A DNA stretch of 64,000 nucleotides from a virus, in IMG/VR virus record IMGVR_UViG_3300032675_000001, positions 296,684 through 360,683 of that record; one strand, given 5' to 3'. Both the position numbers and the translations under genes were made by a program. Under the pieces are notes generated by a model. That model saw only the letters and a list, made by a program, of their open reading frames with translations. It was not told the origin of the DNA and ran no database searches. Shown one piece after another: positions 24,005 to 35,816 of this stretch (its first letter is position 1; each line of letters opens with the position of its first letter).

Positions 24005-24481
24005 TTAGAAGCGAACAGAAGTCGTAGCAACTACGCCGTTGTTCTTGACACCGCCAAGATCAGTATGAGCATACTGAACACCAACTGAGAATGGTCCTAC
24101 AACATTCAAATCAACGCCCCCAGTTGCACGAAGCCCCTGAAGATTGTGTGCATGAAGATCGCGTAGGTTATCATAACCAAGACCAGCATATACAAGAGTA
24201 TAACCAGTCACTTCATAACCAAGACGAGCGCCAACATTGACATCGCGACGATCAAACACGTTGTCAAGGCCAGTTTCCAAACCAGCAGTGATCGGACCAA
24301 CAACCTTGGTGTCGTAACCGAGTTCAACACCATAAGTGAAGTCACGATTTGACGGAATGTTTGAGATGTCCTGATAACCAACTTCACCAGTTACGCGAGG
24401 ACCAACAAAGCTATCTGCCATTGCTGGAGCGGCAGTTGCGGCGGATACAGCCAATAGTGCTGCTGTGATTAACTTCTTCAT
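24005..24481 (-). CDS. Outer-membrane beta-barrel protein, 158 aa
   Basis: A signal peptide (MKKLITAALLAVSAATAAPAMA) precedes about eight alternating amphipathic strands (GEVGYQDI, TYGVELGYDT, VNVGARLGYEV, VYAGLGYDNL, VGVQYAHTD) and a C-terminal Phe, the usual signal for barrel assembly. Likely an eight-stranded OmpA/OmpX-like barrel placed in the host outer membrane. It has its own host-type promoter and terminator, so it is expressed apart from the curli block beside it. A role in surface masking or superinfection exclusion is inference. Confidence 0.75.
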   Translation of the reverse strand: MKKLITAALLAVSAATAAPAMADSFVGPRVTGEVGYQDISNIPSNRDFTYGVELGYDTKVVGPITAGLETGLDNVFDRRDVNVGARLGYEVTGYTLVYAGLGYDNLRDLHAHNLQGLRATGGVDLNVVGPFSVGVQYAHTDLGGVKNNGVVATTSVRF

Positions 24482-24573: not shown

Positions 24574-26631
24574 TTATTTTGATGTTGCCCTGTACACCCC
24601 ATCCCAATCTCTAGGTTTTGGTGGATTCTGTTGTATCTCTTTGATCCTATCTTGCATCATTAAGTAATAAGATTTCAGTACGCCGTTCCAGTTATTTTCC
24701 ATAGCCTGTGCAAAACCCAATGCTCTGTTCCAAGCACCCATTCTATATGCATCCATGAATCGTTGATGTGCTAGTTGCGCTTTTGCGTCCTTGTGCTCCA
24801 ACACCGTATAGATTCTGGAAGGTTCTGTTTTGCCCTTGACTGCGATAAGATCAAGTTCAACGACCTGATACTTGTCTTTCACGTATTCTGCGGTTTTGGG
24901 ACCAATAATGATTTTAACCCCGTAAGGCTTGCTTTGACCTTCCAGCCTACTTGCGAGATTAACGCCATCACCCAGACAAGTATAATCAAACCGCTGGTCG
25001 CTGCCCATATTGCCGACAACAACAGTATCAGTATTAATACCGAGACCCATTCCAAAAGCTGGTACGCCTTCTTTTTTGACTTCATTGTTAAATTCCTCCA
25101 ATGCTTTCAACATCTGAAACGCTGTTTTTACTGCATCCAATGCGTGTTTCTCATTGTTTACAGGTGCGTTCCAGAATGCCATTTGAGCATCACCTATATA
25201 CTTATCAAGCGTACCTTTGTTCTCAAGAATTGCTTTGGTCATCGCTGTCATGTAGCGATTCATAATCTTGGTCAATCCTTGAACGTCCTTGCCATAATGT
25301 TCTGAGATTGTAGTGAAACCACGAACATCCGTGAACATGATGGACAGTTCTTGCTCAGTGCCTCCTAGCTGTAATAGTTCTGGTTGACGCTGTAGTTGTG
25401 CAACAAGATCAGGACTCAAATAAGTTCCAAACTGCTTCTTGATCTGCTGCTTTTGTAGAAACTCATTGATGAATTTTACACTGTAAACATGCAAATAAAT
25501 AATGAGAGCAGACAAGAAGTTGAATGAAATATCAAACAATATCTTATTATGACTATATAGATATACAGGAGTATAAGCATATCCGATCAGTAATATTCCA
25601 ATCCAAACAATGGAATATCTTAGATTAGACAAGCCTATAACTGCTAGTGAAAGAAGCACAAATGCCAGAAGATCAACCAGCCCAACCCAATTCGGAATTG
25701 ACACAGAATCCTGATTTATCAGAGTCTGAAGAATGCTGGCCTGAACCTGATGGGGCATTTTGGCACCAGCCGGAGTCGCTACTGGGTTTGCGATCCCGCT
25801 CGCAGTCACACCGAGTAGAACGATCTTTCCATCGAGACGAGGAATATTCTCGCCTACTTCAAACGATGAGAATTCGGAATTCGGATTAATAAACACACGA
25901 CCATATTCATCTGTAGGAATTTTACCAAACTGTGGAACACGAACAGCCTCAACACCAGTCTCATTTATTTTCGCTTGATAGCTTGGATCACCAGCAGCGA
26001 CACGCAACAGTTCTAAGGCGAACGAAGGGTAGTATTCGCCATTTGAAGTCCCTAATAAAGGCATTCGGCGCACAACCCCATCCGTCTCGGGAAGAGTTGT
26101 TGTTATGCCGACACCTACAGCGGATTGTTGAAGAACTGGAATGTTATCAAGAACACAAGGATAGTTCGGAAGAAACTGAGTTGGTTTCCCGTCACCGATT
26201 ACAGCAACACCTGTGCGGCGAGTCTGACGATTATCCCTAGTGCAATCGGTTGAAAGTGTTTGGCTAAGCACTACAGGGTGATTTGCTAACGCATTTGCAA
26301 AGGCATCATCACCATTGAATCTATCTTTTTCCGGATAGAGAATGGTGCTTCCAACAAGACCAGCATGACCATTATCGTAAATGTCATTGATAATCTTGGC
26401 ATAAGTGTCTCTAGGGAATGGATATTGTCCGTATTTTTCTATTGCTTTCTCGCCAATATTTGCAATGACGATTTGATCAGAATGTACAGGCTTGCCTAGC
26501 ATAAGATAATCATAAAACTTAAGCTTCATCGCATCAACTAGATACGGATTGGAAAGCTTGACGATAAGAAGTAATGTTAAAGTGAAAAGAGCCATCCAAG
26601 GACTCAATAGGATTTTTCGTAGTTTTTTCAT
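24574..26631 (-). CDS. CHASE2-domain adenylate/guanylate cyclase, 685 aa
   Basis: A transmembrane receptor cyclase. After one N-terminal membrane helix (about residues 11-30) comes a periplasmic CHASE2 sensor (to about 300: FYDYLMLGKPVHSDQIVI, then FPRDTYAKII, and the end motif KIVLLGVTASG). Three membrane helices follow (about 315-385), then a class III cyclase domain (about 425-600). Catalytic residues are present: both metal Asp (MFTDVRGFT and YIGDAQMAF), the base-binding Lys (LDKYIGD), and YTCLGDGVNLASRLE with the transition-state Asn and Arg. Lys in the base pocket favours ATP. The frame is complete. It is the last gene of the curli block. A membrane cyclase is very unusual in a phage. 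Confidence 0.9.
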   Translation of the reverse strand: MKKLRKILLSPWMALFTLTLLLIVKLSNPYLVDAMKLKFYDYLMLGKPVHSDQIVIANIGEKAIEKYGQYPFPRDTYAKIINDIYDNGHAGLVGSTILYPEKDRFNGDDAFANALANHPVVLSQTLSTDCTRDNRQTRRTGVAVIGDGKPTQFLPNYPCVLDNIPVLQQSAVGVGITTTLPETDGVVRRMPLLGTSNGEYYPSFALELLRVAAGDPSYQAKINETGVEAVRVPQFGKIPTDEYGRVFINPNSEFSSFEVGENIPRLDGKIVLLGVTASGIANPVATPAGAKMPHQVQASILQTLINQDSVSIPNWVGLVDLLAFVLLSLAVIGLSNLRYSIVWIGILLIGYAYTPVYLYSHNKILFDISFNFLSALIIYLHVYSVKFINEFLQKQQIKKQFGTYLSPDLVAQLQRQPELLQLGGTEQELSIMFTDVRGFTTISEHYGKDVQGLTKIMNRYMTAMTKAILENKGTLDKYIGDAQMAFWNAPVNNEKHALDAVKTAFQMLKALEEFNNEVKKEGVPAFGMGLGINTDTVVVGNMGSDQRFDYTCLGDGVNLASRLEGQSKPYGVKIIIGPKTAEYVKDKYQVVELDLIAVKGKTEPSRIYTVLEHKDAKAQLAHQRFMDAYRMGAWNRALGFAQAMENNWNGVLKSYYLMMQDRIKEIQQNPPKPRDWDGVYRATSK

Positions 26632-26641
26632 GGCTCTATCC

Positions 26642-27835
26642 TTAATGTTTTACATATGAATATCCAGTGCAGGTTCCAGTAGTACAAGTAATGCTCATTG
26701 ATGCGCTATCAGTAGTAGTAGGATTATCCTGAACGACAGTTACTCCGATATTTGAACTATTTAGCGTAAGAGAAAACATTTTCTGTGCAGTGCCAGCTTG
26801 TGTGGCACTTACCGTATTTCCACTAGTTGGTATATTAAGTTCTAAGAAGTGATTGCCCGTTCCAGTCTGTGATGTGGTGATGTTATTACCTGTTCCTGTA
26901 ACGTTCTGAAATAGATTTTGTCCACCTGATTGAGTGTTGTTCAATATGTTTGAGTTGCCGTTAATGATAGCCTGCTCATAGTTGGAGTTTCCTGCCTGAT
27001 TTACTGTCATATTATTTCCAGTTCCAACAATATTAGCTTCAACTAGGTTATGATATCCATTCAATGTTTGACCACCTTGTGTCACGTTCAAGCTATTTGA
27101 TGCACCGTTAATAACCAATGCTGTGCCATTAGGACCTCTTACAGCATTGTAATCACCTGTTTGAGTAACAGTTACACTAGTGTTATCTCCACCGTATTGA
27201 TTGATGTAGACAGTGTTATAACCTATAGTTGAGGTTTGGTTTATATAGTTCTGCTCTATTGAACTGATAACAGCAGGAGGATAAGTGGGTGCAGGAGGTG
27301 CCGCAGATTGTCCTGCTGCTAATGGAGTAGTTGAGCCACTGCCTGCAAAAGTATTTGTTTGCGCAACAGTTGGGTTTAGAGTACCAGTAAAGCTGAATCC
27401 ATTTGAGTTAGGGAATCCATAGTCAGTGCTGAAGACTGTGCCATTTAGATTGGCATTGGTGAAGAAAAAGAAATGATGTCCTAGACTGTCTGTTCCCTCA
27501 ACATCCAGTTTACCCGGACCAAGATCAGCCGCAACGGAACCATTGCTATTATACACAATCATTTCCCAGGGATAGCTAGGATTGCCACTAGCGATAAATC
27601 CGATATATTGCGTTGACGATAAGTGATAAGGTGATCCTGTGTTCCAAGAAGTGCCTATGCCACTTAGGCTATAGATTTGACAAGTTGTGGTATACAAGCA
27701 AGCACTGACATTCCATTGCGTGTCACTGAACTGTGCAGCACCGAACTCCAGATTGGAAAAAGAGGTTGCCATAGCAGGAACAGTGAATAACCTTAAACAT
27801 AGAATGAAAAGTAGAATCTTATTAAAGGTTTTCAT
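26642..27835 (-). CDS. Secreted curlin-like repeat protein, 397 aa
   Basis: Signal peptide ending near PAMA. Residues about 25-190 form a non-repeat domain; then come repeats of roughly 20-24 residues rich in Asn, Gln, Gly and Thr, for example NTSVTVTQTGDYNAV, NSLNVTQGGQ, NNMTVNQAGNSN, NNITTSQTGTGNH. The spaced S/T-x-x-Q-x-G-x-x-N pattern is the amyloid repeat of CsgA/CsgB curlins. Likely substrate of the CsgG pore encoded two genes upstream. Its start overlaps the FecR gene stop. Confidence 0.75.
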   Translation of the reverse strand: MKTFNKILLFILCLRLFTVPAMATSFSNLEFGAAQFSDTQWNVSACLYTTTCQIYSLSGIGTSWNTGSPYHLSSTQYIGFIASGNPSYPWEMIVYNSNGSVAADLGPGKLDVEGTDSLGHHFFFFTNANLNGTVFSTDYGFPNSNGFSFTGTLNPTVAQTNTFAGSGSTTPLAAGQSAAPPAPTYPPAVISSIEQNYINQTSTIGYNTVYINQYGGDNTSVTVTQTGDYNAVRGPNGTALVINGASNSLNVTQGGQTLNGYHNLVEANIVGTGNNMTVNQAGNSNYEQAIINGNSNILNNTQSGGQNLFQNVTGTGNNITTSQTGTGNHFLELNIPTSGNTVSATQAGTAQKMFSLTLNSSNIGVTVVQDNPTTTDSASMSITCTTGTCTGYSYVKH

Positions 27836-28974
27836 TTGTTAGGTGCTCCATTCTGGACTATTGTTATTGTTCCTTGTGGTCTACCATCACCTTGATTAGT
27901 CCATTTTTGATTCATAAAGTTGTATGAATCTACCAGTCCATTTTGAGAAACCACTACCTGTACTTGTGTATTTAGCGGTAACCAAACAGTAGCAGCCTGC
28001 TCTTTGTCTTGAGAAAGTTCTGAATAAGCCCATCCTATTTGAACAAGTTTCTTGTTCAATACAGGAGAAACATTGGTGTGTATTGTTTGTTTTGGAAGAG
28101 TTGCATTGTTTTCCAAATAAACCTGTTCCAATTGATCTGGAGTAGCGGGCTTGGCAGCAATCAATACTGCAACTTCTTCAAATGGATCACCACCTGAGTC
28201 TGGGTCTTGGTTTGCATCAGCAGCCGCCTGTGAAGGGTTCAACGAAAGCTTCAATGCGTTTTTTGATATCTTGTTAAGACTATCACCAGAATCGGTAGTG
28301 GGTGCTGAAATCTGTAGTGTATTGTTTACCTGCTTCATTGTCATATTTACTTTGACCGGAGGAGCAGGTGGAGTGAAACTGTTTTCCACCATAGTTGCTT
28401 GGAAAGGTCTGGACAGAGTTACTACTCCAGCAGCAGTTAGAACCTCAATAGACCCGGTTGGGCATTCATCTGTTATCTTTGTGGGGTCCTTGTCATCATA
28501 ACAGCTAGGTAGTAGAATGACAGTTGTTTTGCCAGTTTCATCAACTGACATCAAAAAGTCTGTGCCACGAACACCAATCGTTGCAGTTGGAGTATGTATA
28601 TTAACACCACCGGGATTGCCATGTGCGATTTTACCAGATGCATATCGCACTGTACCTAATGCAACTTTAAGACCAAGCTTGCCTTTGTTTGAGTTTCCAC
28701 CATCATATACGAAGTCATCTATTACAAGCTTACTGTTTTCGGTGATATTAACCGTAGTGCTATCAATAAACGTGATCTTGAACTTACCTTGACTGTTGGT
28801 GGTGATCGTATCCATCTTTTCAATCCCGCTACCTTTAGCAGCAGGATGTATCGTATTTGATCTTTTGATTTGACCTCCGCCTCTAAAATCTGTTACCGAC
28901 CCGATTGATGCCATCGCAGGGGTCGATAATAGAAGTAATAGATTAATGGCCAGTCTTAATATTGAACGTGCCAT
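27832..28974 (-). CDS. Secreted FecR-domain protein, 380 aa
   Basis: Signal peptide ending STPAMA. The FecR-type domain spans about residues 25-170: IGSVTDFRGGGQIKR, GKFKITFIDSTTVNI, LKVALGTVRYASGK and TPTATIGVRGTDF, the last being the hallmark of exported FecR domains. The C-terminal part is Pro- and Lys-rich with a final strand segment. In bacteria such proteins often neighbour CHASE2 proteins and surface polymers; a periplasmic sensor or scaffold role is likely. Confidence 0.8.
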   Translation of the reverse strand: MARSILRLAINLLLLLSTPAMASIGSVTDFRGGGQIKRSNTIHPAAKGSGIEKMDTITTNSQGKFKITFIDSTTVNITENSKLVIDDFVYDGGNSNKGKLGLKVALGTVRYASGKIAHGNPGGVNIHTPTATIGVRGTDFLMSVDETGKTTVILLPSCYDDKDPTKITDECPTGSIEVLTAAGVVTLSRPFQATMVENSFTPPAPPVKVNMTMKQVNNTLQISAPTTDSGDSLNKISKNALKLSLNPSQAAADANQDPDSGGDPFEEVAVLIAAKPATPDQLEQVYLENNATLPKQTIHTNVSPVLNKKLVQIGWAYSELSQDKEQAATVWLPLNTQVQVVVSQNGLVDSYNFMNQKWTNQGDGRPQGTITIVQNGAPNK

Positions 28975-29749
28975 TGTTACCGGTACTCGTTATGTTGATT
29001 ACTGTTTCAGAAGCACCATACTGTTGAGTAGTAAGAGTGTTACCTGTTCCAGTAAAGCTGGCATATAGAGAGTGACCATATGTTCCACCGGCATCAGTTT
29101 GTGTCACGTTAGTAGTATTGTTGCTACCAGTGAACAATAATGTTTGTGACGAGTTAGGCGAGTTATCAGTTACAGTAAATGCGTTATTGTTGCCATTGGT
29201 GTTGATTGTTTGCGTAATATTTGCAGCAGACCCATGAAAATTCAATGAGTTGTTGTTACCATCAAATACAACATTAAGATTCAACTTATTACAGTTTGAA
29301 TCGCCCTGCTGTGTGCCACATGCAATGACAGCAGTATTATTATTACCAATCTGTTGAATAGTAGCAGTTGCGCCACTACCTGTTCCAGTAGAACCTACAA
29401 TACCCATTAGTAATGAGTTTGAATTGCCAGTTTGAATAACTGTAACAGTTTGATTGTCACCAGAAAGATAAATTGGATTTACCAAAGTACCTGTAATGTT
29501 AGATACACCTGTTTGTTGGATATTTACATTTACGTTATTACCTGACTGATCAATGTATACTTTATTTGTTGTTGCTACTGTGCCTGCTTCTGTTGCATTG
29601 GGTGAAGTTGCTACGATTGCAGGAGGATTTGGTGCAGTAGGAAGTACCGCAGTTGCTGGAGTGCCAGCATCAACTGATGCTGTTTGTGCAAACGCAGCAC
29701 TAGATACTAGCAACGAACCAAGAATTAATGCATATTTTATTATTTTCAT
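28943..29749 (-). CDS. Secreted curlin-like repeat protein, 268 aa
   Basis: Signal peptide ending SSAAFA. An Ala/Pro/Thr-rich linker is followed by repeats such as NNVNVNIQQTGVSN, NQTVTVIQTGNSN, ATATIQQIGNNN, NNTTNVTQTDAGG and NTLTTQQYGASE. The Q-x-G-x-x-N curlin pattern is clear. Directly follows csgG. By analogy with E. coli one of the two curlin-like proteins could nucleate (CsgB role) and the other polymerise (CsgA role); which is which cannot be told. Confidence 0.78.
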   Translation of the reverse strand: MKIIKYALILGSLLVSSAAFAQTASVDAGTPATAVLPTAPNPPAIVATSPNATEAGTVATTNKVYIDQSGNNVNVNIQQTGVSNITGTLVNPIYLSGDNQTVTVIQTGNSNSLLMGIVGSTGTGSGATATIQQIGNNNTAVIACGTQQGDSNCNKLNLNVVFDGNNNSLNFHGSAANITQTINTNGNNNAFTVTDNSPNSSQTLLFTGSNNTTNVTQTDAGGTYGHSLYASFTGTGNTLTTQQYGASETVINITSTGNNGTFNIKTGH

Positions 29750-29760
29750 CTTTGTAATCC

Positions 29761-30588
29761 TTACTTTGTTGTAGTTGTTTGTGCGGTTGCCTTAAAGTGC
29801 CAAAGCCCTTTCTTTTCGCCGCTCTTTATTAGTTCTGCTACACCGAGTTCAATGGCTGCTCTTATAGCATAACTTCCAGCTTCATTAGTCGTTTGTTGTC
29901 CATCAAGTTCAAATGCCTGTGTTCCCAAATCAAAGAGTTTAAACACTGTTATACCCTCTGAGGTAGACAAAACATTTTTATTGACAGTGACACTATCTAA
30001 TACTTCGCCGGTTTGTGTAGATACGAGTCGCATATTGATTACGACCATATCTTCACTGTATTGAGTATTCGGACCTATGCCTAGATAACGAACCCCATTA
30101 CCTCCTGTTTTAGTATCACTGTTATAATCAATGATACCACCTTCAATGATCAAGCCCGCTACCGTTAAAGGTGGCAGCGGTGTTGCTTTATCACCATATT
30201 CTTGTTCACGCATCTGACGAATAAGTTGACGTTCCTTTATGAGACTGTCAATACCCACACGTTCAACTGGTCTAAACCATTTGCCATTGTCAACATCTGA
30301 TAGAGTTTTAATAAGATATGCGTCAGCACCCTGAGTTACTGCGGTACTGAACGTGCTTAGAGTTGATGATGGCTTACGCTGTCCAGTCTTGTCAGTAAAT
30401 GCATATACTGCAACTGGAATCGGTGGACCTTCAGGATCAGGGATGCCCTTGAATACCTTTTCATTGGCAAACTTAGACACTACAGGCTTTGATCTAAGCA
30501 TTTCCGTGTCTTTGTTCAGTCTAGGGTGAATGCCTCCGATACAACCGGACAAAAGAAGCATTAATGGCAAAATCAATAGTTTTTTCAT
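29761..30588 (-). CDS. csgG: Curli secretion pore lipoprotein CsgG
   Basis: Lipoprotein signal with lipobox LLLSGC at residues 11-16. The alignment to E. coli CsgG holds by eye along the chain: VAVYAFTDKTGQRKP (VSVYNIQDETGQFKP), FSTAVTQGADAYLIKTL, WFRPVERVGIDSLIKERQLIR, LTVAGLIIEGGIIDYNSD, KTGGNGVRYLGIGPNTQY, MRLVSTQTGEVLDSV and ETGV-like IELGVAELI near the end. Length 275 aa against 277. It would form the outer-membrane export channel for the curlin-like proteins. Confidence 0.93.
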   Translation of the reverse strand: MKKLLILPLMLLLSGCIGGIHPRLNKDTEMLRSKPVVSKFANEKVFKGIPDPEGPPIPVAVYAFTDKTGQRKPSSTLSTFSTAVTQGADAYLIKTLSDVDNGKWFRPVERVGIDSLIKERQLIRQMREQEYGDKATPLPPLTVAGLIIEGGIIDYNSDTKTGGNGVRYLGIGPNTQYSEDMVVINMRLVSTQTGEVLDSVTVNKNVLSTSEGITVFKLFDLGTQAFELDGQQTTNEAGSYAIRAAIELGVAELIKSGEKKGLWHFKATAQTTTTK

Positions 30589-30599
30589 GTCAAGGCTCC

Positions 30600-31055
30600 T
30601 TAAAACGCAAATGTCGCAATAGGAACATTGACCACTGTTTGATTGCCTGAACTGTCAACTACCGTGAGTTGCACATTGGTGCCTGTTTTTAGGTAACTAA
30701 TGGTGTTTCCATCTAGATTAAATGTTCCTGCGTTGGATGATCCTCCGGCTTGGAACAAGTTGTTTGACAACTGTGTTGCAAGCTGTGCATACACTTGTGA
30801 AGTAAACAGAGAAATAAACTTAGCTAGAGGAGTGTTTGATGCAGCAGCGGCGGCGGCTGCTTGAGCAGATGCTAATGCATTTGCATTTGAGGCAGCATTA
30901 GAAGACTCTAACGACTGCACCGAAAGTACATGGTTAGACCAGTTGATGCCATTAAATGAAGGGTCTTTAAACTGCTGAATCAGTGGATCAGCATGTGCCG
31001 TTCCTGCAATACTAAGTGCTGTGATTAGAGAAAGTGCTTTTAATATTTTTCTCAT
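30600..31055 (-). CDS. csgF: Curli assembly factor CsgF
   Basis: Signal peptide, then IQQFKDPSFNGINWSNHVLS, matching the CsgF N-terminal plug (FQFRNPNFGG...), which binds inside the CsgG channel. A low-complexity Ala/Ser/Asn stretch follows, then the C-terminal strands NVQLTVVDSSGNQTVVNVP, matching LQLNVTDRKTGQTSTIQV. Length 151 aa against 138. It sits directly upstream of csgG with the same order as expected for a functional pair. No CsgE is seen. Confidence 0.88.
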   Translation of the reverse strand: MRKILKALSLITALSIAGTAHADPLIQQFKDPSFNGINWSNHVLSVQSLESSNAASNANALASAQAAAAAAASNTPLAKFISLFTSQVYAQLATQLSNNLFQAGGSSNAGTFNLDGNTISYLKTGTNVQLTVVDSSGNQTVVNVPIATFAF

Positions 31056-31072: not shown

Positions 31073-31402
31073 TTAACTACTTCCGCCAGAAGCCTCTTGA
31101 TCTGCTTCTTTGTGATGTACACGAGGTTGATTGATAATCTTTTCGGCCTCAACACGCTCATGTTCAATGGTCTTTCCGCGCAAGTGTAATACCGTATTAA
31201 CTTTTTGATTAAGTCTGATCAAGTCATTGTCTAGCATTCTGATACGATCAATCAGCGCGATCAGAACAGTGTTTGCTTCGCTGAGAACCGGCTTGACTTC
31301 TTTTGTCGCCCATTCCCAAACGTAGAACACGAAATATCCCATGCCGCCAGCAGCAATGATGGGGAATCCATACTTGTTTACTAGTTCTGCTATTTCACCC
31401 AT
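31073..31402 (-). CDS. Small holin-like membrane protein, 109 aa
   Basis: One hydrophobic helix (about residues 11-29: FPIIAAGGMGYFVFYVW) is followed by an amphipathic coiled region (TVLIALIDRIRMLDNDLIRLNQKV). A paralogue of the next gene upstream, with the same GFPI-A-A-G-x-GYFVF core. Could be a holin-type or membrane-scaffold protein of the curli block. TAATG-type coupling links the pair. Confidence 0.6.
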   Translation of the reverse strand: MGEIAELVNKYGFPIIAAGGMGYFVFYVWEWATKEVKPVLSEANTVLIALIDRIRMLDNDLIRLNQKVNTVLHLRGKTIEHERVEAEKIINQPRVHHKEADQEASGGSS

Positions 31403-31686
31403 CAGTCGCGTCTCGCATCTGTCTTGCCATCAGCACGAGCGATTCGTTCAACATCTGGTCTTAAACCCAACGCATTTGAAACAACAGTGTCAATGCGAAT
31501 GACATCGTGATTCATAGTCTTAACACGATTGTCTAGTGCGGTGATGATACCAGCCATACCTTTTACGCTACCCGTGACACCAGCAAGAATAAACTTTAGG
31601 GTGAGGAACACAAAGTAACCAGCCCCTAATGCAGCCGCAATAGGAAATCCAACATCACCAATAACTTTAAAGATATCTGTACCCAT
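31402..31686 (-). CDS. Small holin-like membrane protein, 94 aa
   Basis: First gene of the curli block. Hydrophobic helix VGFPIAAALGAGYFVFLTLKFI then a helical tail with ALDNRVKTMNHDVIRIDTVV. Clearly related to the 109-aa neighbour. Function unproven. Confidence 0.6.
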   Translation of the reverse strand: MGTDIFKVIGDVGFPIAAALGAGYFVFLTLKFILAGVTGSVKGMAGIITALDNRVKTMNHDVIRIDTVVSNALGLRPDVERIARADGKTDARRD

Positions 31687-32133: not shown

Positions 32134-33582
32134 TTATTTTTGAAAAAGTGAAAATAAATTCCCAGTGACATAGTTCTTATCTTGTCCAAACATACTATGT
32201 TGTAAATGCTTGATAATATCTGGGGTAAGGTGTCTTGCTCTCATTCCCCCACGAGGAAAAAGATGCACTTCTACTGGTTCATCGCCTTCAACCTTTTGAA
32301 TAGCCATCATGCGATTGCGCCCTTCATGACCACTGACTCTGGCATCTTTACTGAAGTCACCGTCTTCCCATTCTCGTGGAATATCTATGGTCAAAAAGGG
32401 TGAACCCAATGCTCCACCTTGTTCAATATGACCTGCAATGTGATCAACGCTTGTGGGATTGTTTAATCTGTGAGCAAGCTTTAAAAACATACTCGGTTTC
32501 ATCAAAACACGCAATCCCATGTAATCCACGTTAGCATTATATGGAACAGAACCAAGCCCGTTTTCGTTGTCTACTTTGTATTCATCAAGTTCTGATTCTT
32601 TTATGTCTTTTGGCATTGCATAAAAGATATGCTTACCTACAGCGGCAAGTTTTTTAGTTCCTTTTGCCCAATATGGATGAATATCTTTGGTGTGATAAAA
32701 GACTGCACCGTGTGTTGGGTCAGGAGCATGACCAGACATGATCTTCTTGGCAAGCTCATAGCTCTTGGCCCATAGCTTGTAATCAAGACCTTTGCCAGTG
32801 TTTTCAAGCTTCTTTAACCATGTATTGAAATCTTGACCACCGGGTGCTTTTCTGGACTTGATGATCTTATCAAGATGTTCCATTTCTTGTGCATATTTGT
32901 AGTTTGGATCGTTGTGGTTCCAGCAACTAAACTGACTTGGTTTTGTGGCAACACCAACAATACCTTGACCAAAACGTCTTGCGTGTGCCTTATCATTGGC
33001 GCGATTCTTAATGACATTACCGATTGCTAGCATACCATTTGCGCCTTGATCCCTTGCTTCTCCCCACATTGTGTGGGCAAGAATCTTAGTGGGGTCTTGG
33101 TGTACTGGTTGTGTTGCTGCTGGGAGATCAAAACGAACAACAGGATCAAACTGCTGCTGTTTATTGTGCATAGCCAATCCGCCTGCCGCCAAAGCCGCTG
33201 CGCCGCCTGCGGCTAGTGCACCCTTCTTAGCCCAATCGGGAAAAGCTTCATCAAGCGATTCATTCATACCTAAAGGAAGATTGGCAACATGCTGCAATGG
33301 AAGATTGACTAGTTTCAATGCACCACTCGCAAACTGTCTCCAGTAACCGGTATTATGAATATGCTGCATCATGTAATACAGATATCTTGCATCAAGAACA
33401 TCAGTAGCCGTTACCTTGATACCGATATTTTCTGGTGAATATTCCTTGGTTGGTGTGCCTACCGATTTGTCACTACCTTTGCGCTGAAGCCAGAAATCAG
33501 CATCAGGAAAGTTTGTCTTCACTGTTGCTAAATCTTTGAGCCTTACGCCAGCGGATTCTGTTATGAACTCTTTCGCTCTCAT
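32134..33582 (-). CDS. Capsid-targeted SleB-type cell-wall hydrolase fusion, 482 aa
   Basis: The ATG overlaps the previous stop (TAATG). The first residues, MRAKEFITESAG, fit a T4 capsid-targeting peptide with a gp21-like cleavage site (I-T-E before S-A). Next comes a domain with DADFWLQRKGSDKSVG and TDVLDARYLYYMM, resembling type I specificity-subunit-like phage domains, then an Ala-rich hydrophobic helix (about 130-150). The SleB/cell-wall hydrolase core is TMWGEARDQGANGMLAIGNVIKNRA (split here around residue 185), with the catalytic Glu of GEA. The C-terminal domain (from about 340) has GSPFLTIDIP and GHEGRNRMMAI, common in phage structural polyproteins. Likely injected with DNA. Confidence 0.7.
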   Translation of the reverse strand: MRAKEFITESAGVRLKDLATVKTNFPDADFWLQRKGSDKSVGTPTKEYSPENIGIKVTATDVLDARYLYYMMQHIHNTGYWRQFASGALKLVNLPLQHVANLPLGMNESLDEAFPDWAKKGALAAGGAAALAAGGLAMHNKQQQFDPVVRFDLPAATQPVHQDPTKILAHTMWGEARDQGANGMLAIGNVIKNRANDKAHARRFGQGIVGVATKPSQFSCWNHNDPNYKYAQEMEHLDKIIKSRKAPGGQDFNTWLKKLENTGKGLDYKLWAKSYELAKKIMSGHAPDPTHGAVFYHTKDIHPYWAKGTKKLAAVGKHIFYAMPKDIKESELDEYKVDNENGLGSVPYNANVDYMGLRVLMKPSMFLKLAHRLNNPTSVDHIAGHIEQGGALGSPFLTIDIPREWEDGDFSKDARVSGHEGRNRMMAIQKVEGDEPVEVHLFPRGGMRARHLTPDIIKHLQHSMFGQDKNYVTGNLFSLFQK

Positions 33583-35816
33583 TATCCAATCCGCTCTGCT
33601 CGTATATGTCGAGAATTCCAAGTTGGGTTTTCTCGTCTAGCGATATTTATTGCTTCTTCCGCACTTGAAGCAGTCACATTGGATATACCACTGGCGTCTC
33701 CTCTATGGACTCTCCATAACGCTGGTGCTGTTTCTGTATTTTCAGATGATGAAGTATTACCATTTTCTGCTTCTTCCCAGCGAGCATTAAATCGCATGAT
33801 CCAATTAATCTGAGCATCAGTTAGGTTTTCATAGTCTTGATCATGTGGGTCAACGTGAGGAAGACCTTGTTGATCGCACCATAGTTCATATTCACGAGTT
33901 AGTTGATCAATAGCTTGCGCTCTTGGTCCATCCTGTTGAGGAGCATATGCATTGACATCATCTGAAGGAGTAGGAGGTGTTTGGCGGCGACCGGGTTCGG
34001 CAACGTCAACAGAAATATTCTGTAGTGGCATAGTTCTCCACACGTGATTGCGAGCCGCCAGCCTATTATATGCCACTTCTGAATTGGGACCAGATGCGTA
34101 TGCAGGAGCAACTGAACCATCACGTGTCATAAATCTATATGTTGTTTCACCCTCGGCAGGCTCATCAAGAATGCCCTGTGGATCATTTTCACCAGATAGT
34201 ATCTTAGCTAGTTCATCGTTCGTTTTACGATTGTACTTCTTCTTTGCAAGAGCACCGGCAAGTTCTTCCTTATTAAGTTCACCGGCCATATATCTAGCAA
34301 ATAAACTCATTTCTGCCTTAGGGTCTTTTGGTTTAAGTAACTTATATAATCCCTTTAAGTATTCTTTACGATACTTCTGTGGATCACAAGCTGCATCAAG
34401 TGCTACGACAAATCTCAACACAGTATTTTCAATCTTACTAAAGTTAGAGTTTAACCAATCATTACCGGGACCACGAAACTCAACCCAGTTTTCTTTAGTA
34501 TTAATACTGGTGAACTTTCTGGTTGACCCATTATGAATAATCTTACTTGCTATTTCTTCCATATTACTGCGTAATTTTTCAAATAATCTTTCTGTTTCCT
34601 GTGGATTATCTTTTGCTTTATTTTTAATAATATCAAGTGCAGACTCACAGTAAGAGTTAGCTATACGACCAAACTGGTTAAGAACATACTGATCTCCGGA
34701 AAGAATAGCAAGCTTTACATAATCCAAGTTACTTTTACTATAGTTAGGAACACTTACGTTCATGTGTAAACCGCATGAACTATTAGTGTATGCACCAACG
34801 TCATCTGCCCATTCTTTAATCTTGGAGATATCATCAAACATTTCATCTACTGGCAGTGGAGGACTAATAAACTCTAATCCTGCCTCATCTGAACCATATG
34901 CTCTTAAACTAGAATCTGGTTCAATAGTATACCCATCAGATGTTCTGCGAGCACCGTGATATGATGAACTCCAGTTTACGCTGCGCCCGATGGCGTCTTC
35001 AAATCTGCTAGCGACTTCTTCAATGGATTCGCCGCCATTGTTGTTATATACTGGTTCAGGATCACTCCAGCGGGTCCATGCTAAATCATTATTACGGTTC
35101 ATTCGGTGATTATATACGTCATCCATATCATTGATACCGATGCTCTCTAGGAACTCTTCTTGATCAACCTCATCACGATCAAATCCGTATATGTATGGGC
35201 TATTTTCATCTGGGTCGGCTTCATCGTCTTCATCATAACTATAATAGTTTGGAATCATGTCGCCGTCTTTAAATGACTCGTATGCTTGATCGTAATAGTT
35301 GTAGCCAGCAGCATTGCCGGGTCTTTTCCATTCCTCATCGGCTACTTCTTCGTAATCTTCTTTAGTGGGAATACGATCACCCAATAGGTCTTCTGGTTTA
35401 TCTAGATAATCAGCAATATCTGATGGATCAGCATTTTTCTTAATCCAGTTTAAAAGATATTCCTTGCCTCTTTTTTCCCAATCTTTTTTGACATATGTTT
35501 CTAAATATTCATCAAACTTTTCTTCTAATACCCGTCTTAATTCGGCAATAGTGGATCGGGTATTGTGATCACGTTCATCAAAGAAATCAACAATGTCATC
35601 AATGCTTCTAGCAGGCTCATTTTCATCGTAACGTTCTGGGTCTTGGTAGTCTGGTTCATCATCCTCGGTGTTAACGTCAGGAACGATCATTTCAAACTCC
35701 ATACCAACCTTAGCATCAATCTGATTAGCCAGTTTTTTAAGGTTAGTAGGACTCATCTCCACTTCAAGGAGTTGTTGTTGTGCTTCGTATAGGTCAAGGA
35801 AATGTTTTGCTCTCAT
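33582..35816 (-). CDS. Capsid-targeted amidoligase-family protein A, 744 aa
   Basis: Start MRAKHFLDLYEAQQQLLEVE is nearly the same as in the next gene and fits a prohead-targeting peptide. The amidoligase (COOH-NH2 ligase, glutamine-synthetase-like) core is marked by KVGMEFEMIVPDV (metal Glu, about residue 40), GLEFISPPLP, CGLHMNVSVPNY and WVEFRGPGNDW with the phosphate-binding Arg. A long acidic insertion lies between the first motifs. The C-terminal 40 residues hold one Y/W-R-V...SAEEA-IA repeat. It may ligate amino groups to carboxylates on peptides or proteins; substrate unknown. Confidence 0.75.
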   Translation of the reverse strand: MRAKHFLDLYEAQQQLLEVEMSPTNLKKLANQIDAKVGMEFEMIVPDVNTEDDEPDYQDPERYDENEPARSIDDIVDFFDERDHNTRSTIAELRRVLEEKFDEYLETYVKKDWEKRGKEYLLNWIKKNADPSDIADYLDKPEDLLGDRIPTKEDYEEVADEEWKRPGNAAGYNYYDQAYESFKDGDMIPNYYSYDEDDEADPDENSPYIYGFDRDEVDQEEFLESIGINDMDDVYNHRMNRNNDLAWTRWSDPEPVYNNNGGESIEEVASRFEDAIGRSVNWSSSYHGARRTSDGYTIEPDSSLRAYGSDEAGLEFISPPLPVDEMFDDISKIKEWADDVGAYTNSSCGLHMNVSVPNYSKSNLDYVKLAILSGDQYVLNQFGRIANSYCESALDIIKNKAKDNPQETERLFEKLRSNMEEIASKIIHNGSTRKFTSINTKENWVEFRGPGNDWLNSNFSKIENTVLRFVVALDAACDPQKYRKEYLKGLYKLLKPKDPKAEMSLFARYMAGELNKEELAGALAKKKYNRKTNDELAKILSGENDPQGILDEPAEGETTYRFMTRDGSVAPAYASGPNSEVAYNRLAARNHVWRTMPLQNISVDVAEPGRRQTPPTPSDDVNAYAPQQDGPRAQAIDQLTREYELWCDQQGLPHVDPHDQDYENLTDAQINWIMRFNARWEEAENGNTSSSENTETAPALWRVHRGDASGISNVTASSAEEAINIARRENPTWNSRHIRAERIG

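Follow-up and report, generated by a model that had tools for sequence, protein, structure and literature searches.

A 64,000-nucleotide stretch of DNA (the window), which represents positions 296,684-360,683 of the 360,683-bp record of a giant bacterial virus (phage; IMG/VR record IMGVR_UViG_3300032675_000001), carries on its minus strand a curli-type operon. This operon probably (at a rough probability of 0.6, judged from sequence) specifies a secreted amyloid fibre that bears an exchangeable adhesin and to which a FecR-cyclase signalling pair has been grafted. Its genes encode, in order, two small membrane proteins, CsgF, CsgG, a first curlin (curlin-1), a FecR-domain protein, a second curlin (curlin-2), and an adenylate cyclase with a CHASE2 domain. 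In the proposed mechanism, the infected host cell would make CsgG and CsgF, creating a pore in the outer membrane. Curlin-2 and the uniform fibre subunit, curlin-1, would then pass through the CsgG/CsgF pore; the C-terminal solenoid of curlin-2 would join the fibre, leaving its N-terminal domain (the head) exposed to act as an adhesin or lectin-like domain. Since the head evolves by exchange, the target to which the fibre or the infected cell adheres is probably determined by it; candidates are glycans, particles, other cells, and competing phages. FecR and the CHASE2-cyclase would constitute a signalling pair taken from bacteria, in which periplasmic FecR, with its curlin-like strand at the C-terminus, is probably in contact with the curlin subunits or the base of the fibre and reports to the cyclase, whose output would be cyclic AMP (cAMP).

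The secretion genes are well matched to known families. CsgF (30600..31055, 151 residues) matches the Pfam CsgF family at an E-value of 7.3e-17 and is the sole CsgF of the whole record. CsgG, the outer-membrane pore subunit (29761..30588, 275 residues), contains the lipobox LSGC and matches both Pfam CsgG (E 1.2e-50) and the structure of Escherichia coli CsgG, PDB 3x2r (E 8e-46). Curlin-1 (28943..29749, 268 residues) overlaps the FecR-domain gene (27832..28974, 380 residues; Pfam FecR, E 1.6e-12) by 32 bp, which in turn overlaps curlin-2 (26642..27835, 397 residues) by 4 bp (ATGA); thus, FecR sits between the two curlins. The last gene (24574..26631, 685 residues) encodes a CHASE2 domain (Pfam, 3.6e-38) joined to a class III adenylate cyclase (Guanylate_cyc, 1.1e-21) and is conserved in relatives. 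An earlier reading of this DNA, made without database searches (the sequence-only reading), had placed csgG, curlin-like 1, FecR, and curlin-like 2 in this order, and its coordinates and both overlaps were correct. However, that reading had omitted csgF, the CHASE2-adenylate cyclase, and the pair of small membrane proteins, all of which are part of the conserved unit. The genes, including those of both curlins, are under purifying selection, with nonsynonymous differences (pN) of 0.13-0.24 against synonymous differences (pS) of 0.62-0.82.

The two curlins differ in layout, as the sequence-only reading had described. Curlin-1 consists of a signal peptide, a linker, and curlin repeats that begin at about residue 59 and, by profile matches, extend to the C-terminus (residues 59-268; 28946..29575). 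Curlin-2 begins with a signal peptide, followed by a non-repeat head (residues 25-165; 27341..27763), a linker, and repeats that begin at about residue 206 (residues 206-397; 26645..27220). In its AlphaFold model, which has a predicted local distance difference test score (pLDDT) of 80.3, the head is predicted to be all-beta, the linker is of low confidence, and the profile-matched repeats form a beta-solenoid. This solenoid (residues 197-397) aligns with the beta-helices of SufD/SufB at Z scores of 16-17, up to 17.4 (VIA-align). There are four copies of the motif QxGxxN in curlin-1 and five in curlin-2, versus 0.23 and 0.27 in shuffled sequences (P 2e-4), and a profile built from curlin-1 homologues finds 11 half-repeats in curlin-1 (Gln-type positions 68, 79, 106, 133, 147, 162, 184, 206, 217, 243, and 255) and 9 in curlin-2. 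Repeats lacking the curlin spacing had been named beforehand as grounds for giving up the curlin assignment; in 89 curlin-1 sequences and 94 sequences from the curlin-2 position (slot), the spacing peaks sharply at 11 and 22/23 residues, which matches the QX10Q spacing and mean repeat of 23 residues given for curlins (PMC10192328). The window proteins match curlin models only weakly. With Pfam Curlin_rpt, the E-value is 0.077 for curlin-1 and there is no match for curlin-2; among NCBIfam models, CsgA is the best for curlin-1 (2.3e-4), and CsgB is the only match of curlin-2 (9.6e-4). In the curlin-2-slot proteins of relatives, Curlin_rpt reaches E-values down to 2.6e-11. The characteristics of curli (type VIII) secretion found here are thus a CsgG pore, CsgF, and curlin subunits with repeats spaced by about 11 and 22-23 residues.

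Three scans of IMG/VR provided about 160 loci for comparison; these are ranked best matches, duplicates included, so that counts among them do not equal natural frequencies, and gene starts and repeat counts rest on the analyst's own open reading frame caller and profile. Among these loci, CsgF-CsgG-curlin-1-FecR is nearly constant, and the order is common to most of them. Curlin-1 has a median length of 260 residues (standard deviation, 23) versus 458 (standard deviation, 171) for the curlin-2-slot proteins, and the slot ranges from empty to an 803-residue protein. The first repeat lies at median residue 36 in curlin-1 versus residue 239 in curlin-2, in which the N-terminus typically forms a head and the C-terminus a curlin solenoid, although a headless version of 155 residues is present in locus L005. 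Among 54 curlin-2-slot proteins, head families include F5/8-type-C (13 proteins), PA14 (7), and GLEYA (5); other matches are DNA/RNA non-specific endonuclease (2) and single cases of an autotransporter barrel and Gcw_chp. Where F5/8C and PA14 could be located, in 20 curlin-2-slot proteins scanned singly, they lie N-terminal to the repeats. The head of the window's curlin-2, taken here as residues 25-160, recurs in about 25 curlin-2 proteins, either at the N-terminus or further in.

Comparison of heads with tails indicates, at the level of sequence, that heads are exchanged on similar tails. The window protein and that of locus L006 are 79% identical in their heads and 62% in their tails. With L094, the tails are still 64% identical, but the heads are only 29% identical, the L094 head being PA14; with L058, the heads are 71% and the tails 36% identical. 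Similarly, L062 and L079 have tails that are 60% identical and heads that are 27% identical, one F5/8 type C and the other PA14. The sequence-only reading had offered two options, an amyloid with a binding head or a nucleator plus polymer pair. The first has gained from the heads that are exchanged and from the F5/8-type-C, PA14, and GLEYA domains that precede the curlin part in relatives, while no specific support has emerged for the second. In a nucleator/polymer arrangement, curlin-2 would be a CsgB-like anchor and curlin-1 a CsgA-like polymer (or vice versa), with the head serving only for anchoring to the outer membrane or CsgF. The presence of two curlins per operon fits such a division of labor, as do the weak CsgA and CsgB matches of curlin-1 and curlin-2, respectively. 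However, CsgA and CsgB can be distinguished only in the Gammaproteobacteria (PMC3521004), and the heads are unrelated to each other, many of them matching binding domains rather than a common anchor. In addition, the close relatives L007, L011, L019, and L026, and likewise L131 and L137, have an otherwise complete operon but no second curlin; its lack in the four close relatives makes it unlikely that curlin-2 is indispensable as a CsgB. Overall, a nucleator/polymer pair appears unlikely. The exchangeable, adhesin-type heads of the second curlin suggest that selection acts on what the fibre binds, and they allow the question of why phages carry curli genes to be approached one head at a time.

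The FecR protein differs from a membrane-spanning anti-sigma factor. A signal-peptide-type helix directly precedes the FecR domain, and a cytoplasmic, sigma-binding N-terminus is lacking; because of this position of the signal peptide, FecR should be periplasmic. In the structural model (pLDDT 87.6), the nearest solved fold is the cell-surface signalling domain of PupR (Z 15.6), and residues 21-117 resemble the cell-surface anchoring domain of an adhesin, PDB 5ix9 (Z 11.1, 74/76 residues). The C-terminal half of phage FecR proteins is poorly conserved except for its end strand, Ile/Val-x-hydrophobic-x-Gln, which in the model lies within a small C-terminal beta domain. In the window this curlin-like unit, recognized by its conservation in homologues, comprises residues 338-376 (27847..27963) and includes Gln 344 and Gln 374, which are present in 59/66 and 64/66 homologues, respectively. 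The end-strand motif occurs in 54/68 sequences, versus 4.3 in shuffles, and the second Gln lies 21-24 residues earlier, a distance of one curlin period, in 48 of 59 (30 residues in the clade of the window). The likeness of the tail to curlin, as read from sequence, may reflect mimicry, descent, or a coincidence of beta-strand composition. Because the N-terminal part resembles an adhesin anchoring domain and the last strand mimics one curlin rung, it is conceivable, though doubtful, that FecR is the periplasmic foot of the fibre, holding it at or through CsgG while the CHASE2-cyclase partner senses the occupancy of the pore or fibre. If so, the adhesive amyloid made by the phage would have interchangeable binding heads and would come with its own secretion sensor.

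A different role for FecR follows from the idea that CsgG admits nutrients such as iron complexes and that FecR is a regulator of iron uptake, a possibility raised in PMC7029224 and PMC9599517. The FecR found here, however, begins with a signal peptide and lacks a cytoplasmic part for binding a sigma factor, and it pairs with a cyclase, as in bacteria, rather than with a TonB receptor; furthermore, an uptake pore leaves the two curlins and their heads unexplained. Thus, this function is very improbable.

The signalling pair has counterparts in bacteria, for which plasmid records were used in the comparison. In all nine bacterial plasmid loci inspected (9/9), a FecR-domain gene adjoins a homologue of the CHASE2-cyclase. 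These FecR plus CHASE2-adenylate cyclase gene pairs, from plasmids of Rhizobium, Sinorhizobium, Ensifer, Shinella, Paracoccus, and Ruegeria, show the same pairing as the phage, but they have neither CsgG nor CsgF alongside, and the nine FecR partners lack the curlin-like C-terminal strand. Conversely, the alphaproteobacterial curli operon (csgF-csgG-curlin-curlin; for example, Sphingobium pTomTYG71b and an Indioceanicola profundi plasmid) shares CsgF, CsgG, and tandem curlins with the phage, and no CsgE is seen in it; the loci examined contain no FecR and no cyclase, and their curlins are rich in regular repeats, with 8-18 copies of QxGxxN apiece. Since bacteria show both parts separately, the phage operon looks like a curli operon that has been joined with a FecR-cyclase pair. 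In S. meliloti, CyaD1 without its CHASE2 domain produces cAMP constitutively (PMC5498481), making it plausible that CHASE2 is an inhibitory sensor; in the phage, CHASE2 may sense FecR. Together, the FecR tail and the bacterial pairing offer a concrete guess as to how the module is sensed.

The absence of CsgE, the export specificity factor of curli, had been reported for the window, with a csgE homologue anywhere outside the window as the finding that would overturn it. No CsgE is detected in the whole 360,683-bp record at E-values up to 10, and a further 15 phage records, 10 of them above 200 kb, likewise yield none at E-values up to 1. The sequence-only reading went on to suggest that export works without CsgE or uses that of the host. 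The absence is indeed real and to be expected, but a need for host CsgE is not implied: csgE is lacking in all Alphaproteobacteria (Dueholm et al. 2012, PMC3521004), and published trees place the phage genes nearest to those of Alphaproteobacteria (PMC9599517). Thus, CsgE, present in Gammaproteobacteria and absent in Alphaproteobacteria, does not define the curli family as a whole. Relative to E. coli curli (csgBAC-csgDEFG), the phage module has CsgG, CsgF, and curlin repeats in common; it differs in lacking CsgE, in the addition of FecR and a cyclase, and in having a headed curlin. By alignment, the chemistry of the pore constriction also differs from that of E. coli CsgG: Tyr51, Asn55, and Phe56 correspond to Ser, Thr, and Phe in the window, so that the Phe alone is kept, and HTVC008M and Melnitz CsgG have Leu where the constriction Phe stands.

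The gene order itself is already known: the window locus belongs to a phage module described before, here within a much larger genome. CsgF and CsgG were reported in pelagimyophages (Zaragoza-Solas et al. 2020, PMC7029224); the full set, which includes FecR, two curlins, and a cyclase but no CsgE, appears in the account by Wittmers et al. (2022, PMC9599517). HTVC008M and Melnitz have the eight genes in the same order as the window. These marine isolates have genomes of 141-147 kb versus 360 kb for the window's record, and identity to the window is about 45% for FecR and 43% for CsgG. Searches of annotated phages with CsgG and FecR recover only HTVC008M and Melnitz strains, plus, for CsgG, one Salmonella phage record; this record (OR851715.1, Salmonella phage S.Kent 1-2-1, 1499 bp, unannotated) may represent host DNA deposited as phage. 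Beyond the pelagiphages of the original description, the module is present in at least 10 further phage records above 200 kb, and among the papers available none was found that links jumbo phages to curli. The second curlin is named by Wittmers et al. as a second fibre gene only, with no mention of heads in the portions of the paper available; likewise, neither a headed, head-swapping curlin-2 nor the FecR tail is met in the available portions of the published accounts of the module.

Phages have been proposed to carry curli genes for lysis timing, for uptake, for superinfection exclusion, or to capture sibling cells. For Melnitz, Buchholz et al. (2022, PMC9004378) stated that csgA and csgB are absent and proposed that CsgGF is a gated, pinholin-like pore that times lysis, in which case curlins would be mere passengers. 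The Melnitz record (L002, MZ577097.1 51159-54825), contrary to that paper, annotates two curlin-repeat proteins flanking FecR. In the window, a cell-wall hydrolase (Pfam Hydrolase_2, 32134-33621) and the two small membrane proteins, which are weakly holin-like, lie directly upstream and are consistent with lysis timing. However, the proposal was built on a module without csgA/B, yet two curlin genes are seen both in the Melnitz record and in the survey; moreover, both curlins are under purifying selection, and a pure pore leaves the repeat spacing and the head patterns unexplained. A role in lysis timing is therefore improbable, and the heads and the FecR tail favour an adhesive fibre with a selectable target over either a lysis or an uptake pore.

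Several observations weigh against an adhesive fibre. CsgG is thought to export unfolded chains, so that a folded, 140-residue head would have to refold outside the cell. The window's head matches no Pfam family, and Foldseek with the whole curlin-2 model gives no significant match; the strong VIA-align matches of that model cover only the solenoid, the head aligning to nothing reliable in a search that hardly probed its fold. Consequently, the term "adhesin" rests on relatives that have other heads. About one-fifth of the complete slots hold no recognizable curlin, eight being empty and some having other proteins (e.g., a secreted nuclease), so that the curlin-2 slot serves more than adhesion. 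When the FecR C-terminus is compared with the curlin-1 profile, the match is not significant (E 0.07, versus 0.45 for a reversed control), although the best alignment is end to end; because of this result, common descent of the FecR tail and curlin is not claimed. Finally, no clumping was seen in Melnitz infections, according to Buchholz et al. (PMC9004378).

Non-curlin secreted proteins are possible occupants of the curlin-2 slot at L087:2686-3399 and L088:6978-7736. The L088 protein has a signal peptide and resembles DNA/RNA non-specific endonucleases, and the slot protein of L152 has a barrel-like C-terminus. A 6.8-kb contig binned as Flavobacteriaceae (L169, NZAX01000026.1), the sole contig obtained from a FecR-alignment scan of genome contigs, carries a phage-type module; it is probably a misbinned phage contig rather than a bacterial source of the module.

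The small membrane proteins at the upstream end of the operon are paralogues by alignment. The first (31402..31686, 94 residues; PHROG 18771, E 2.9e-33) has one N-terminal membrane stretch and a coiled-coil-like part, and the second (31073..31402, 109 residues) matches the same family (E 8.7e-33). Both match the proteins of HTVC008M and Melnitz in the "histidine kinase" position, the upstream small genes being so labelled in Wittmers et al. (PMC9599517), and small membrane protein 1 is probably the "HK" (histidine kinase) of the literature. Pfam reveals no kinase domain in either protein, and the only other matches are weak ones to YvrJ and a holin PHROG. In many relatives, the small membrane proteins lie downstream on the opposite strand. 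Rfam and tRNA scans of the 64-kb window gave no matches; by the empty Rfam scan, the window shows no counterpart of the glutamine riboswitch that has been reported for Melnitz. Directly downstream of the module (24005-24481) is a gene for a small outer-membrane beta-barrel protein, which recurs in the closest relatives only.

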